From NCBI GenBank assembly GCA_030692375.1, contig JAUYCD010000213.1:1-32469 (forward strand): a stretch of DNA of 32,469 nucleotides, in the 5' to 3' direction. The translations under genes and the position numbers were made by a program. This document shows positions 17,600-30,906 of the stretch, piece after piece. Origin of the DNA: Candidatus Latescibacter sp. GTDB taxonomy: Bacteria; Latescibacterota; Latescibacteria; Latescibacterales; Latescibacteraceae. Position 1 is the first letter of the stretch. Each line of letters opens with the position of its first letter. The notes beneath the pieces are model-generated. The model had not been told where the DNA came from. It saw only the letters and a list, made by a program, of their open reading frames with translations, and made no database searches.

Positions 17600-20440
<2,841 letters not shown>

Positions 20441-20448
<8 letters not shown>

Positions 20449-21556
20449 TCAACCTCAGCGGCATGATAAGATAATAACATTCCTGCGATGTTTTTTCTCC
20501 GACAGGCCTTATAATACAGGCTGCGGTTGGTGTTTCAAGCTCCAAAACAAGCTCTTCGGTATCCACTGCGCGGAGTATCTGGGAAAGAAAATCCGCATTA
20601 TAGCCGATCACAATCGGTTCTCCGCTGTAATTGACCGGAAGCGTTTCTCTCGCCTCACCGCCGATATCCATATTCGATGTGGTTACTTCCATCTCGCCCG
20701 GGTTGATGGACATACGAATCTGATGAGTTATAGCGTTTGAAAGAACAGACACTCTTCGGACAACATCGGCGAATTCATCTGTGGATATATATACTTTCTT
20801 GGAATTTCCCAAAGGGATTACCTGTCTGAAATTGGGATAGGGTCCTTCGATAAGCTTTGAAAAGATAATGGTCGTTCCAAAATCGAACAGGATTACACCT
20901 TTTCCAAAAATCACATTCTTCAACTCCACACCAACAGAATGATACCGTACCACCTGGGCAAGAGTCTTAGGCGGAACGATCGACTCCATGGTATTTTCAC
21001 TTTCAATCCCCATTTTCTTTTCAAAAATTGCCAGACGGTGTCCATCGGTAGCCACCATCGACATACCTTCGGAATTAACCTGCCAATATACTCCTGTCAG
21101 AGCAAGCCTTGTTCTCTCGGAAGCTACTGAAAAACTGGTCTTATCCACCATTTCTACAAAATCAGCGCCGGAGAGTGCAACAGATATACCGTCAATAGTT
21201 TCCTTGAGAACAGGATAATCAGATGCGGATATCCCCATGATGCTGGCTTCTCCCTGTTTAAAACTAAGGCTGACACGCTCTTCATCTGTAGAAAGCGTCA
21301 CATCCTGTTCCGGCAGCTCGCGGATGATATTGAAAAACCTCTTGGCATTCACAGTTACCGCACCTTCTTCAAGAACAGTACAATCAAGAGAGGTGATGAT
21401 GGAGATATCCATATCCGTTCCGGAAACTGTGAGCATATTCCCTTCTGCTTTCATGAGAAAATTACTGAGAACAGGCAAAGTAGGTTTTTGAGGAACAACA
21501 TTAAAAACCCCTTGCAAACCATCAAAAAGTGACCCCCGACCGATTACAATTTTCAC
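20441..21556 (-). CDS. dnaN: DNA polymerase III beta subunit (sliding clamp)
   Basis: DnaN forms the ring that holds DNA polymerase III on DNA and binds many repair proteins. The 371-residue length is standard for three clamp domains. Recognisable segments include VVPQKPTLPVLSNFLMKAEG, TVNAKRFFNIIRELPEQDV, MVATDGHRLAIFEKKM, EGPYPNFRQVIP and the C-terminal peptide-binding-pocket end YYLIMPLRLND, close to the common MPMRL ending. The start is a GTG at 21556, preceded by AAGGAG 7 nt away. It overlaps dciA and is separated from dnaA by the 346-nt origin candidate, so it may have its own promoter there. Confidence 0.97.
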
Positions 21557-21902
21557 AGGAAATCTCCTTAAAATTTGTTTTATGTAATATATTATATATT
21601 ATGGTTAATTTCCAAGAAAAATATCGGTTTTTCTGTATGAAAAAAATGGTTGAAAACAAGATATAAACCTGATTAAAACTTCTTAAGAACTTGTTCAAAA
21701 ACCATTCTTTTTCCATAGCATTTTATTATATACCTTCATTCTTTTCTTTTTTAACCAATGAAAGCACAGAATATTCCATAAGAATAAACATTTTTTATTT
21801 TCATAACTACTTTAAAATTAATAACTTACATTATTATCAACATTATCAACACTTCTAGTACTATAGCTAGAAATAAAATACATATATATACTTAAGAAAG
21901 CC
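21557..21902. other. oriC: Candidate chromosomal origin (oriC) between dnaA and dnaN
   Basis: This 346-nt non-coding gap is the most AT-rich long stretch of the window. It carries two directly adjacent DnaA-box-like sites TTATCAACA (21834-21842 and 21843-21851), each one base from the TTATCCACA consensus. They are followed without spacer by triplets CTT-CTA-GTA-CTA-TAG-CTA-GAA (21852-21872), whose opposite strand reads as DnaA-trio-like repeats, then an AT-rich stretch (21873-21896) suited to unwinding. A second AT-only patch lies at about 21575-21600. The dnaA-dnaN interval is a common origin site. The call rests on motif and context; no strand-composition calculation was made. Confidence 0.65.
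21834..21851 (+). promoter_or_regulatory. Tandem DnaA-box variants
   Basis: Two abutting copies of TTATCAACA form an 18-nt direct repeat. The C-to-A change at the fifth-sixth position from TTATCCACA still leaves eight of nine consensus bases in each. Tight tandem spacing is typical of origin-proximal boxes that anchor DnaA filaments. Confidence 0.7.
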
Positions 21903-23312
21903 TTAAAAATCTGGATTCTTTGCTTTTTCAATTAAAGTGTGAACTTGTTTTTCAAGAGAAGAATCAGAAAGAATTTTTTTCTCCATGAACCGAATGGAAT
22001 GAATTACTGTGGAGTGATCGCGTCTTCCAAAATGCAGTCCGATGGTTTTCAGAGAGGAAGCAGTAAGTTGTTTAGAGAGATATATGGCGACATGACGAGC
22101 TATGGCGACTTCCTTATGACGGGATTCTCCGATTATTATGTTTGTGGAAAGAGAAAAATGGTCTGCAACCAATTTTTGGATATATTCTATCGTGATAAGT
22201 CTGGATGTTTTACGAATAGTGTCCCCAAGGATATTAACGGCCATATCGAGGGAAATATCCTGCCCGTGGAGAGAGGAATATGCAAGAAGACGGATCAGAG
22301 AACCTTCAAGTTCCCTGATATTGGAGGTAATATGTTCTGCTATAAACTCAGCTATGGAAGTATCTAGAATTACACCGTCGATTGTCGCTTTTTTCTGAAG
22401 AATGGCGATCCTGGTTTCAAAATCGGGAGGCTGGATGTCGGTTACCAGTCCCCATTGAAACCGGTTGATCAGACGATCTGCAAGACCTTTGAGCTGGGAG
22501 GGAGGACTATCCATGGTCAGAACAATTTGTTTGCCTTTCTGATGAAGGTCGTTAAATATATGAAAGAATTCTTCCTGAGTGCGTTCCTTGTTATTAAAAA
22601 ACTGTATATCATCAACGAGAAGAAGAGTGGCAGTGCGATAGTATTTAGAATATTGAGTAGTAAGCTTGTTTTGGATGGAAAGAATGAAATCCATGGTGAA
22701 CTTTTCACTCGACACATAAATAACACGGTTCATGTTACGGTTACTATTAACGGAGTTAAGGTAGTGATGCGCAATAGCCTGGAGAATATGTGTTTTGCCG
22801 AGACCGACGCCGCCATATATGACCAGGGGATTAAAGGCAGTGGTCCCGGGGGAATCTGCCACTGCTTTAGATGCGGCATAGGCAAACTGGTTGGAGTTAC
22901 CTACCACAAAAGTATCAAAGGTAAAACGGGAATTGAGAGTCAACTGATCCAGAAAGGCGTTATTGCTCTTAGATATAGTGTCGAAAGAAAATTCTGAAGA
23001 TTGAGGTTCTTCGGACAAAGATAAAGGAAGAAGAGATGATTCTTCATTTTTGTTTGAGGAATCTGTAAAAGAAAAATGAATCTGGACATCGTATCCGAGT
23101 ATGGAGCGACTGAGCGAAGTGATAAGAGGAAGATAGTGCTCCTCAAGCCAGCTTGAAAAATAAGGTTGTGGAACAGAAATAACTATAGTATTCTCAGTGA
23201 GTTCCTTGAGGGTAAGCGGTTTAAACCACGTGGTGAAGCTCTGTATGTTTACTCGTTCTTCAATGGCTTTAAGTAAACGGTCCCAGAATATGTTTTTCTC
23301 AATTAAGTTCAT
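21903..23312 (-). CDS. dnaA: Chromosomal replication initiator DnaA
   Basis: DnaA binds DnaA boxes, melts the origin and recruits the helicase. The 469-residue protein has domain I at the N-terminus (FWDRLLKAIEERVNIQSFTTWFKPL), a variable serine-rich linker, an AAA+ domain with Walker A GGVGLGKTHILQAIAHHY (about 167-184), Walker B LLLVDDIQFF (about 231-240) and arginine-bearing helices (RLINRFQWG). Domain IV has the DnaA signature VAIARHVAIYLSKQLT and LKTIGLHFGRRDHSTVIHS. I chose the ATG at 23312 because the protein then starts at domain I; the frame continues 14 codons upstream with a hydrophobic extension and no ribosome binding site. It is transcribed away from the divergent tRNA genes. 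Confidence 0.97.
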   Translation of the reverse strand: MNLIEKNIFWDRLLKAIEERVNIQSFTTWFKPLTLKELTENTIVISVPQPYFSSWLEEHYLPLITSLSRSILGYDVQIHFSFTDSSNKNEESSLLPLSLSEEPQSSEFSFDTISKSNNAFLDQLTLNSRFTFDTFVVGNSNQFAYAASKAVADSPGTTAFNPLVIYGGVGLGKTHILQAIAHHYLNSVNSNRNMNRVIYVSSEKFTMDFILSIQNKLTTQYSKYYRTATLLLVDDIQFFNNKERTQEEFFHIFNDLHQKGKQIVLTMDSPPSQLKGLADRLINRFQWGLVTDIQPPDFETRIAILQKKATIDGVILDTSIAEFIAEHITSNIRELEGSLIRLLAYSSLHGQDISLDMAVNILGDTIRKTSRLITIEYIQKLVADHFSLSTNIIIGESRHKEVAIARHVAIYLSKQLTASSLKTIGLHFGRRDHSTVIHSIRFMEKKILSDSSLEKQVHTLIEKAKNPDF

Positions 23313-23480
23313 AAAAATTACGATATTTAGGAAAAGAATGAGAGATTTGCACAATGTGAGAGAGGCAAGAAATAGCGGTCAAGCATCAAACCTTTCATAG
23401 CACAATAAATGCTTTTAAAAACTGACTGTCAAGTGAAAACAGAACCCTTTGAATTACTCTTTGTCTATTCTAAAAAAAAC

Positions 23481-23631: not shown

Positions 23632-23707
23632 GCGCCCATAGCTCAACTGGTAGAGCAGCAGACTCTTAATCTGTTGGTTCAAGGTTCGATTCCTTGTGGG
23701 CGTACCA
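23632..23707 (+). tRNA. tRNA-Lys (anticodon CTT)
   Basis: A 76-nt cloverleaf: acceptor GCGCCCA/TGGGCGT (first pair G-T wobble), D-arm GCTC...GAGC, anticodon stem GCAGA/TCTGT with loop CTCTTAA (anticodon CTT), T-arm CAAGG/CCTTG with loop TTCGATT, discriminator A, CCA encoded. It is the CUU-reading lysine species. Its 3' end is only 13 nt before the ribosome binding site of the corrinoid protein gene. Confidence 0.95.
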
Positions 23708-23732
23708 AAAATATGTCCTCCAGGAGGTGGGA

Positions 23733-24365
23733 ATGGCTGATTTTCAGGCGATTGCCGATGCTCTGATCAAGGGGCAGGCACCGAAGGTGAAAGAACTGGT
23801 CAGCGCCGCTATCAATGAAGGAGTAAAACCCGGGGAAATTCTTTCCGGGGGTTTGATAGCAGGCATGGCAGTAGTGGGTGAACGTTTTAAAAAGAACGAG
23901 ATTTATGTCCCTGAGGTACTGATCGCCGCTCGCGCCATGCATGCAGGTATGGATCTACTCAAACCGCTTCTTGCGGCAGCCGGGGTAAAACCAAAGGGCG
24001 TATTTGCGATAGGGACGGTGAAAGGAGATCTTCATGACATCGGAAAAAACCTGGTCATGATGATGATGGAGGGCGCAGGTTACCAGATCATGGATTTGGG
24101 TGTGGATGTAACGCCGGAAAAATTTGTACAGGCCATCAAGAACGGCGCCCAGATGATCGGATTGAGCGCCCTGCTCACCACAACCATGCCCTCCATGCGA
24201 AACACCATCGATGCAGTGAAAGCAGCAGGATTGAGAGATAAGGTGAAAATCCTGGTAGGAGGAGCGCCGTTGACACAGACCTATGCTGACGAAATAGGCG
24301 CTGACGGCTATTCTCCGGATGCTGCGACTGCCGTTGATATAGCGAACGAGATGATGGCAAAATAA
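23733..24365 (+). CDS. Corrinoid (cobalamin-binding) methyltransferase protein, MtaC/MtbC type
   Basis: This 210-residue protein carries a methyl group on a bound corrinoid cofactor in one-carbon transfer, passing it between a substrate-specific methyltransferase and an acceptor-methylating enzyme. An N-terminal helical cap (about 1-85, with GEILSGGLIAGMAVVGERFK and EVLIAARAMHAGM) precedes the Rossmann-like B12 domain with the DxHxxG motif GDLHDIGKN (98-106; His101 is the expected cobalt ligand), the SALLTTTM stretch and GGAPLTQTYADEIGADGYSPDA. AGGAGGTGGGA lies before the ATG at 23733. No partner MtaB/MtbA, methyltransferase or reductive activase is in the window, so the substrate is unknown. 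It seems to share the tRNA promoter and to end at the hairpin terminator at 24507. Confidence 0.92.
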   Translation: MADFQAIADALIKGQAPKVKELVSAAINEGVKPGEILSGGLIAGMAVVGERFKKNEIYVPEVLIAARAMHAGMDLLKPLLAAAGVKPKGVFAIGTVKGDLHDIGKNLVMMMMEGAGYQIMDLGVDVTPEKFVQAIKNGAQMIGLSALLTTTMPSMRNTIDAVKAAGLRDKVKILVGGAPLTQTYADEIGADGYSPDAATAVDIANEMMAK

Positions 24366-28154: not shown

Positions 28155-28341
28155 GATGAAAAATTGTTGAAAAGTTTTGAGCGGTTTACACCTTGAGACA
28201 TACAGAAACGTATGTGTCACAGGCAGTAAAATAATGTTGATACTATGTTGAAAAACGTGTAAAAATGAAATATACAACTTGTAATATAATGCAAGACAAT
28301 ATGTTATGAACAATAATCAAAATGTCAGGTTTTGTGGATAA
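28155..28341. other. AT-rich rsmI-rsmG gap with DnaA-box-like sites
   Basis: The 170-nt non-coding gap and the last codons of rsmG contain a perfect DnaA-box complement TGTGGATAA (28333-28341). Three further sites differ by one base from TGTTGATAA, the complement of the box variant found beside dnaN: TGTTGAAAA (28165-28173), TGTTGATAC (28235-28243) and TGTTGAAAA (28246-28254). All four have the same orientation. This may be a secondary DnaA-binding locus or an accessory part of the origin; in AT-rich DNA single-mismatch sites also arise by chance. Confidence 0.4.
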
Positions 28342-29005
28342 CTTTTAATTTCGTAATGATCACCACATACCCGGTACGCACATGATTTACTGCCGGAGGT
28401 TTGTTTATAGATATGTTGAAAAGTCTTGAATCAAGATAGTTCGAGAGATCATCAAGCTCGTGTTCTATATGTTCGCCTTTGATCGAAACCATCATTCCCT
28501 CCGGACGGATAAAACGCGCGGTGAAAAGAAAAAACTGGCACAGGCTGACTGTAGCGCGTGTGATAACCATGTCAAACGAACCATTGTGAGAAGACGGAAG
28601 CTCTTCAACCCGTGATCGCATGACGGATACAGAAGGAAGAGGAAGCGTAGCAACAACCTGGGAAAGGAAATGAACCTTTTTTGCAATGGAATCGACCAGG
28701 ACTGTTTTCAGATGAGGAAAAGCTATTGTCAGAGGAATGCCGGGGAGTCCGGCGCCGGAACCGAAATCCATCAAAGTTTCCACAGACAATAAATCCACAC
28801 AGGAGGAAACCTTGAGCGAATCGAGGAGATGATACTCGACAAAACGAGACATGTCGCGACGGGATACCAGGTTCATATTCCGGTTCCATAGTAAAAGAAG
28901 ATCGGTATATTGCGCAAAGAGAGACAAAGCATCGTCTTCCAGGTGAATTCCATAGGCTGCAGCGCCGCCTGTGAGAGTGAGAAAAAAATCATTCGGCACG
29001 GGCAT
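28325..29005 (-). CDS. rsmG: 16S rRNA (guanine-527 N7) methyltransferase RsmG
   Basis: RsmG (GidB) methylates N7 of G527 in 16S rRNA; loss gives low-level streptomycin resistance in several species. The 226-residue protein shows [21 protein letters not shown], the SAM motif [20 protein letters not shown] and the [12 protein letters not shown] block, followed by [12 protein letters not shown]. Its ATG at 29005 lies inside the end of mnmG (17-nt overlap), a conserved coupling. The last codons contain a perfect DnaA-box sequence. Downstream follows rsmI, not parA/parB. Confidence 0.95.
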
Positions 29006-30878
29006 GTGAGGATCTCTTACGTTTCAAACGCTCCGATTCAATCATAAGAATAGAAATATGGGAAGAGCTGATACCCGGTATCCTCCGGGCCTGACCGAGG
29101 GTTGCGGGATGAATGAGATTGAATTTCTCACGAGCCTCCAGGGAAAGCGCACCGATAGAGAGATAATCAATGGAATCGGGTATATTCATATTCTCGGAGG
29201 CCTGCTGGCGGCTGATCATATCATTCTGACGGCGGATGTAACCTCGATACCTGATTTCGATATCCAGACGGCGGCCGATTTTATCGGAAATATCCAGGCG
29301 CTGACGGATGAACGGCGCCACATCAAACCAGGTAATATCCATACGGCTGAGAAGCCGGGAAATTTTTTTGCTCCCCTGTACAGGAGGCCTGCCATCGGCG
29401 GAGAGAACGGTATTGATGATGTTCTCTTTTATAGCGGTACTGTCTGCGATGGCAATGGCTTTTTCGAGAATGGAAATGTCTGTTTCACGTGAAACAATAT
29501 CATCTTGCAAAATTACCCCAATTCTTTTCGTATACGGAAGCAGTCTTGAATCGGAATTCTCTTCACGGAGAAGGAGACGGTATTCTGCCCGTGAAGTAAA
29601 CATACGGTATGGCTCATCGGTGCCCTTGGTAACGAGGTCATCGATAAGTACCCCGATATAGCCATCCCACCGATTAATGCAGCAGGGCGGCTCAAGGCGG
29701 ATGTAAAAAGCGGCGTTTATCCCGGCCATGATTCCCTGCGCAGCCGCTTCCTCGTAACCGGAGGTGCCGTTGATCTGCCCGGCCAGAAAAAGACCGGATG
29801 TAGTCTTGGATTCGAGAGAACTTTTCAAGAATCGCGGATCGAAGACATCATACTCTATGGCATACCCCATCTGTGAAATCTCGACACGTTCCATTCCCGG
29901 AATGGTCTGTAAAGCTGCGATCTGGATATCTTCGGAAAAACCGGTGAAAAAGCCGTTGACATACATTTCAGGATGATTCCTTCCCTCCGGTTCAAGGAAG
30001 ATTAGATGAGACTGGTGATCGGGGAAATGGAATATCTTGTCCTCGATAGAAGGACAGTATCGGGGGCTTTTTCCTTCAATGGTTTTGGAAAGGAACGGAG
30101 TCTTGTCCGGGTTATCGAGAATAATACGGTGCGTAGCCTGATTGGTTTTGGTAAGATAGCAGGGTTCCTGGATAACCTTGGTATCGGGAGGAGTCCTGAA
30201 GGAAAAGAAATTCGGAATTATATCTCCGGGCTGCTCATCGGTCTTATCCAGGTCGAGGGATTCCCGCCATACACGCGGCGTGGTGTCCGTATTATACCTT
30301 TCTGTGGGATGCCCGAGTTGAATAATGGATTGAGTGAGGTGGTCAGCGGCTTTTTCATTCCGTCTGCCGCCCCAGATCTTACGGAGTCCTATATACATTA
30401 TTCCACGGAGAAAAGTCCCGGATGTTACCACCACGGCATCTGTGGTCAGTAATCGTCCGTCGCCCAGTTTTACCGCCTGGACTGCGCCCTGGTCGGCTAC
30501 AATACCGACCGCTTCGCCTTCCACAATGGAGAGAGTGGGAATTGCAGAAAGAATTTTTAGCACCTCGACCGGGTATTGGGCGCGGTCCGCCTGAGCTCTT
30601 GAGGACCAGACTGCCGGGCCTTTCGAAGTGTTGAGGACCTTGAACTGGATTCCTGCACGGTCTATGGCCAGCCCCATGACCCCTCCGAGCGCATCGAGCT
30701 CGCGGACCAGATGTCCTTTTGCAAGTCCGCCGACAGCGGGGTTGCAGGACATGAAACCGACTTTCTTTTGGTCAAAGGTAACGAGGGCGGTGCGATGACC
30801 CATGTTGGCTGCAATGGCCGCAGCTTCCACACCGGCATGTCCTCCGCCTATGACAATGACCTCAAAATCTTTTTCCAT
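28989..30878 (-). CDS. mnmG: tRNA uridine-34 5-carboxymethylaminomethyl modification enzyme MnmG
   Basis: MnmG (GidA) is the FAD- and NADH-dependent partner of MnmE in building the cmnm5 group on wobble uridine 34 of several tRNAs. The 629-residue protein has the FAD-binding [14 protein letters not shown] at its N-terminus, the family signature [16 protein letters not shown], and [20 protein letters not shown]. The ATG at 30878 has AAAGG upstream. Gene order yidC-mnmE-mnmG-rsmG is the conserved origin-proximal cluster. The codons for VSRET, around residue 462, coincide with a perfect parS palindrome, and a second parS lies just before the gene. Confidence 0.97.
29481..29496. promoter_or_regulatory. 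parS: parS centromere site inside mnmG
   Basis: The perfect 16-bp palindrome TGTTTCACGTGAAACA equals the consensus ParB-binding site. It is embedded in the mnmG reading frame (Val-Ser-Arg-Glu-Thr), as parS sites often are in origin-proximal genes. An identical copy lies about 1.4 kb away. Confidence 0.93.
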
Positions 30879-30890
30879 ACGTACCTTTAG

Positions 30891-30906
30891 TGTTTCACGT
30901 GAAACA
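30891..30906. promoter_or_regulatory. parS: parS centromere site between mnmE and mnmG
   Basis: A second perfect TGTTTCACGTGAAACA fills most of the 30-nt gap between the mnmE stop and the mnmG start. Its intergenic position shows that the sequence is kept for its own sake and not for a protein. ParB bound here could also affect mnmG transcription or translation. Confidence 0.93.

Follow-up and report, generated by a model that had tools for sequence, protein, structure and literature searches.

A putative duplex-opening module between dnaA and dnaN in an uncultured Latescibacterota bacterium

The dnaA–dnaN neighbourhood

The window, that is, the whole stretch of 32,469 nucleotides analysed here, holds a conserved origin gene neighbourhood composed of dnaA, dnaN, a DUF721 gene, gyrB, gyrA, rsmG, mnmG, mnmE and two parS sites (Table 1). 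The genes gyrB and gyrA lie downstream of the DUF721/DciA-like gene, and rsmI, rsmG, mnmG and mnmE are found on the other side of dnaA. In the four genomes of the family, wherever contigs let the order be read, it is mnmE-(mnmG)-rsmG-rsmI-tmk-...-dnaA-dnaN. Sites of the parS type are expected close to an origin; neither parA nor parB was seen among the window proteins examined. In relatives, parS occupies similar places upstream of rsmG. A gene for an MtgC/MtbC-type corrinoid protein (23694-24365, + strand), placed right after tRNA-Phe and tRNA-Lys, is located between dnaA and the rest of the origin-side genes. A conserved AT-rich block (about 21577-21600) precedes the dnaN start; it is TATACAATATATTGTATA-like in relatives and could represent a dnaN promoter or operator.

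Table 1. Positions of the genes and sequence elements considered in this work
Feature	Position	Strand	Remarks
DUF721/DciA-like protein	20095..20448	-	DUF721 model E=2.6e-8, well below the model's own cut-off; candidate replicative helicase operator (putative role)
dnaN, DNA polymerase III beta clamp	20441..21556	-	TIGR00663, 288 bits vs cut-off 137.65
dnaA-dnaN intergenic gap	21557..21902		346 bp, GC 0.22; predicted oriC inside
Upstream DnaA box TTATCAACA	21834..21842	+	Direct sequence; G003 retains an abutting box, TTTTCAACATTTTCAACA
Trio-proximal DnaA box TTATCAACA	21843..21851	+	Direct sequence; equivalents TTATCAACA (G001), CTATCAACA (G002), TTTTCAACA (G003)
3-nt spacer CTT	21852..21854	+	Exactly 3 nt in 4/4 family genomes
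DnaA-trio run CTA GTA CTA TAG CTA	21855..21869	+	Trios read on the - strand, 3'-GAT CAT GAT ATC GAT-5'
AT-rich putative DNA unwinding element	21867..21899		Adjoins the trios, stops just short of the dnaA stop codon
dnaA	21903..23315	-	TIGR00362, 511 bits vs cut-off 343.9; ORF 21903-23354, likely ATG start at 23315
DnaA-box cluster, rsmG 3' end and rsmG-rsmI gap	28165..28422	-	TTTTCAACA at 28165-28173, 28246-28254 and 28414-28422; TTATCCACA at 28333-28341; one-mismatch box at 28234-28242
Perfect parS TGTTTCACGTGAAACA	29481..29496		Inside mnmG
Perfect parS TGTTTCACGTGAAACA	30891..30906		Between mnmG and mnmE

An earlier note on this DNA had proposed cumulative GC skew as a check. At the scale of the 32 kb window, the genome being assembled in 273 contigs, the cumulative minimum falls at position 21911, beside the AT-rich run and 42 bp from the last trio. 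This change of sign does not simply follow gene orientation, since replication genes to either side of it are encoded on the - strand. At third codon positions the genes to the left do not uniformly carry the expected sign beyond dnaN and dciA, and strand switching is weakly marked there. For G009 and G051, which belong to distant families and are each assembled as a single contig, skew was sampled at 20 points; neither curve has its minimum at dnaA, and they are not counted in favour of the site. In G051 the minimum lies at about 4.4-5.0 Mb, dnaA being at 5.55 Mb, and the G009 profile is noisy.

Sequence and conservation of the box–trio site

The two abutting boxes, the triplets behind them and the AT-rich DNA that follows are exactly as the earlier note had described them, and the series CTT CTA GTA CTA TAG CTA (21852-21869) is followed by gaaataaaatacatatatatac. 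The polarity is correct, with the boxes reading 5' to 3' on the + strand and the trios 3' to 5' on the - strand. These two boxes are the only exact ones in the dnaA-dnaN gap. When 30-bp segments of the 32 kb window are compared by nearest-neighbour energy, the second least stable place starts at 21867.

The site can be set against published rules for a basal unwinding system (BUS), which ask for a DnaA box with at most two mismatches followed within 16 bp by at least three NAN trios (Pelliciari et al., 2021). The word TTATCAACA differs from TTATCCACA at one position and is present in two exact copies, the abutting identical copy providing the tandem box, which is the commonest arrangement under these rules (57%). 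Three successive 3'-NAN-5' trios, CTA GTA CTA or 3'-GAT CAT GAT-5', lie within 16 bp, and AT-rich DNA, a further BUS feature, is present beside them. Only TAG departs from the pattern, interrupting the run after three trios and making it the most eroded among the four genomes of the family. The polarity given in the earlier note thus stands, but its count of four fitting units out of six does not, because GTA (3'-CAT-5') also obeys the 3'-NAN-5' rule. Neither does the reading of CTT as the first trio: the register of the relatives has exactly 3 nt between box and triplets, so CTT is better read as a spacer, the remaining triplets being retained. The upstream box is therefore 12 nt, and the proximal box 3 nt, from the first trio, and the former distance is inside the published peak of 10-13 nt (Pelliciari et al., 2021). 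It had further been remarked that a GC-rich spacer is missing. A short spacer does exist, yet it is indeed not GC-rich here (CTT; TGG, CCT and TTT in relatives). The BUS search rules limit the spacer by its maximum length only; a GC-rich stretch is typical of models without being a search criterion, and in H. pylori it was reported to be dispensable for unwinding.

The window genome and three others (G001, G002 and G003) make up family f1, and the conservation of boxes and triplets, the second check proposed, was found in all three of the others. Within the gap and in the same orientation, the site reads TTATCAACA-TTT-CTA TTA CTA CTA in G001, CTATCAACA-CCT-CTA GTA TTA CTA in G002 and TTTTCAACATTTTCAACA-TGG-CTA TTA CTA TTA CTA in G003, with the same strand polarity. 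A box, 3 nt and CTA-NTA triplets running in the same direction are thus common to 4/4 family genomes, among which DnaA identity is about 68-70%. By dnaA, the nearest named genomes are Candidatus Latescibacterota MAGs with 70% and 67% identity. The basal unwinding reading advanced in the earlier note gains support both from this shared layout and from the position of the window skew minimum.

Searched across the 3.91 Mb genome with up to two mismatches, the 18-nt tandem box is found once, against 0 for the reversed-pattern control. Isolated copies of TTWTCAACA are not uncommon (138 genome-wide, against 62 for the reversed control), so that the weight of the argument rests on the tandem, the trios and their conservation. 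A scanner scoring each box together with its spacer (0-16) and the trios that follow was applied to both strands of the window, and the site ranked first with 21.2-21.5; the next-best window site scored 11.2 with the AT-rich composition of the gap and 15.6 with genomic composition. When the gap was resampled 300 times under a first-order Markov model, no resample scored as high as the site (p=0.003, the floor). The gaps of the relatives had already been viewed when trio weights and permitted box letters were chosen manually on the basis of the published consensus, so these scores describe the site and are not a blind test.

The box was called non-standard in the earlier note. This holds with respect to TTATCCACA, but the word matches TT(T/A)TCAACA, which has been put forward as the mollicute motif and considered for phytoplasmas as well, and a TTATCAACA box is listed for the origin of the Cyanothece linear chromosome. 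Boxes of family f1 are TTATCAACA or TTTTCAACA almost throughout, and those of other families are mostly of the TTWTCCACA type. The DnaA protein retains Walker A K178, the hydrophobic ISM residue (I) and the R285 arginine finger (E. coli numbering). A change in its helix-turn-helix was sought as the cause of the C-to-A change in the box, and no determinant is claimed. The residues checked, which align with R399, D433, H434 and T436, show no substitution, and just two places, E. coli positions 416 and 456, have residues private to the family. With those four residues retained, a new DnaA specificity and tolerance of A at box position 6, or AT drift, are equally likely.

Orientation across the phylum and the rsmG cluster

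The same scan (p<=0.01) detects a box–trio module downstream of dnaA in f1 (4/4), f3 (7/9), f5 (3/3), f7 (1/1) and f8 (8/14). In family f4 no module was found in the scanned region, and most f2 and f9 genomes together with several f8 genomes have none above threshold. Regions downstream of dnaA from other phyla served as an independent control for the scanner: 8/75 lie at about the p threshold in either direction, mostly with weak scores and at best 17.7.

The best trios aim at dnaA in f1 and f3 and at dnaN in f5, f7 and the majority of f8 genomes. Orientation calls are less certain for four genomes, two of f3 and two of f8, which score both ways. In B. subtilis and C. difficile the trios point toward dnaN. 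The DnaA tree places f1 with f2, f4, f5 and f7, and f3 with f8 and f9, the dividing branch having a support of 98/94, and parsimony on this tree requires at least two changes of orientation. Two genomes assigned to f3, G056 (L123) and G028 (L122), sit on long separate branches of the tree and come without the trio module of other f3 genomes. A BUS is a known kind of element and the box word is a variant; the new part of the module is its orientation, with trios directed toward dnaA. No prior description of this box word, of Latescibacterota origins or of BUS orientation was found in the openly licensed literature.

A second group of DnaA boxes, with four exact copies, is located 6.3 kb from the dnaA-dnaN site at the end of rsmG (Table 1). 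It is not a product of chance, given a genome density of about one such box per 14 kb, and same-strand boxes at rsmG are kept in 4/4 family genomes, with 2-5 in each. Families f7 and f8 also carry TTWTCCACA boxes downstream of rsmG. A trio run at this cluster was sought in the window scan and rejected, none extending beyond two units. The cluster is likeliest a DnaA reservoir or a remote origin partner.

This second cluster bears on how the origin may be built. In a bipartite arrangement, compatible with the BUS reading, the dnaA-dnaN module would open the duplex and the rsmG-rsmI cluster would act as its remote DnaA-binding partner, either a loop anchor or a DnaA reservoir. We regard this as possible, though doubtful. 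The strand conservation throughout the family and the boxes of f7 and f8 favour it, as does the distal DnaA box of B. subtilis, which acts from several distances and whichever way it is turned, apparently through looping. In the passage describing it, however, that movable box was tested up to 462 bp, as against 6.3 kb here, and the rsmG cluster could be a simple titration site.

It is improbable that the boxes between dnaA and dnaN are instead a DnaA-responsive regulatory site of this region, with CTA triplets present by chance and the origin lying elsewhere, for example at the rsmG box cluster. Such a reading could draw on the existence of that second conserved same-strand cluster, which is accompanied by AT-rich DNA, and on the known action of DnaA as a transcription factor. 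Across four diverged genomes, however, the triplets stay in the same register relative to the box, the score exceeds that of all resamples and the module recurs in other families; moreover, the rsmG cluster lacks an extended trio run and the window skew minimum is at the dnaA-dnaN gap. Chance alone, meaning an AT-rich gap with a pair of box-like words and a handful of CTA triplets, is hardly credible: the gap is 78% A+T, CTA and TTA triplets are common in such DNA and the genome has 282 exact TTWTCMACA words, but the resampling result, the uniqueness of the exact tandem and the conservation of the module throughout the family all speak against it.

Proposed mechanism and comparison with known systems

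Chromosome copying in this uncultured Latescibacterota bacterium very probably begins with duplex opening at the dnaA-dnaN site. Judged from its sequence, the element is in all likelihood a duplex-opening module of the chromosomal origin, that is, a DnaA-box/DnaA-trio BUS. Layout, polarity, the register in four genomes, the local skew minimum and the conserved DnaA residues are direct observations; DnaA binding, oligomerisation, unwinding and helicase loading are proposed by analogy with work on B. subtilis and H. pylori. As in other species, domain IV of DnaA would bind both abutting TTATCAACA boxes, and ATP-bound DnaA would polymerise from them over the 3-nt spacer onto the - strand. The AAA+ domains would then grip the 3'-GAT/CAT/GAT...-5' triplets and stretch this strand, and the duplex would open in the AT-rich DNA that separates the trios from the end of dnaA, melting running toward dnaA. 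This predicted direction is opposite to that of the arrangement in f5, f7 and f8. Helicase loading would come next, and gene content suggests that it is probably aided by the DciA-like protein encoded two genes downstream.

For a phylum without cultured model organisms, this amounts to a well-supported origin prediction, built on a comparative register and not on a single sequence. Of these results, the switching of orientation and the conserved second cluster most deserve follow-up. The position of the trio strand of B. subtilis, and that of the strand opposite, which DnaD recognises, is fixed with respect to dnaA and dnaN, whereas the module described here is turned round; models of strand-specific helicase loading could be tested naturally on such a change of orientation within one phylum. 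We tentatively suggest, as a combined reading that is rather improbable, that the module was turned round relative to dnaA at least two times in the phylum, that the strand gripped by DnaA is evolutionarily switchable, and that in f1 the shifted box word TTWTCAACA and the conserved partner cluster near rsmG, about 6 kb off, belong to a long-range bipartite origin.

Among the closest known counterparts is the B. subtilis incC BUS (DnaA-boxes 6/7 and DnaA-trios), which also has two adjacent same-strand boxes, a short spacer, 3'-GAT-5'-like triplets on the complementary strand and AT-rich DNA beyond the trios, and which is likewise located in the dnaA-dnaN gap. The Latescibacterota site differs from it in its TTATCAACA boxes, in a 3-nt spacer that is not GC-rich (GGCC in B. 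subtilis), in trios that run toward dnaA and not dnaN, and in a shorter, interrupted run. H. pylori oriC2 (ts1/ts2, GC-rich, DnaA-trio, AT-rich) shares the succession of boxes, short spacer, trios and AT-rich region, and its melting proceeds from the 3rd residue after the proximal box. Its box consensus is different, however, and the H. pylori origin is split around dnaA and includes a GC-rich stretch. The mollicute and phytoplasma motif TT(T/A)TCAACA is the same degenerate word as the f1 boxes TTATCAACA and TTTTCAACA, but it comes from an unrelated phylum and the passage describing it gives no trio context; there the phytoplasma motif is rare and partly inside genes, and the authors doubted its validity. 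Within the phylum itself, the BUS-like sites of f5, f7 and f8 likewise have a box or boxes, a short spacer and CTA/TTA triplets downstream of dnaA, whereas their boxes are mostly of the TTWTCCACA type and their trios aim at dnaN.
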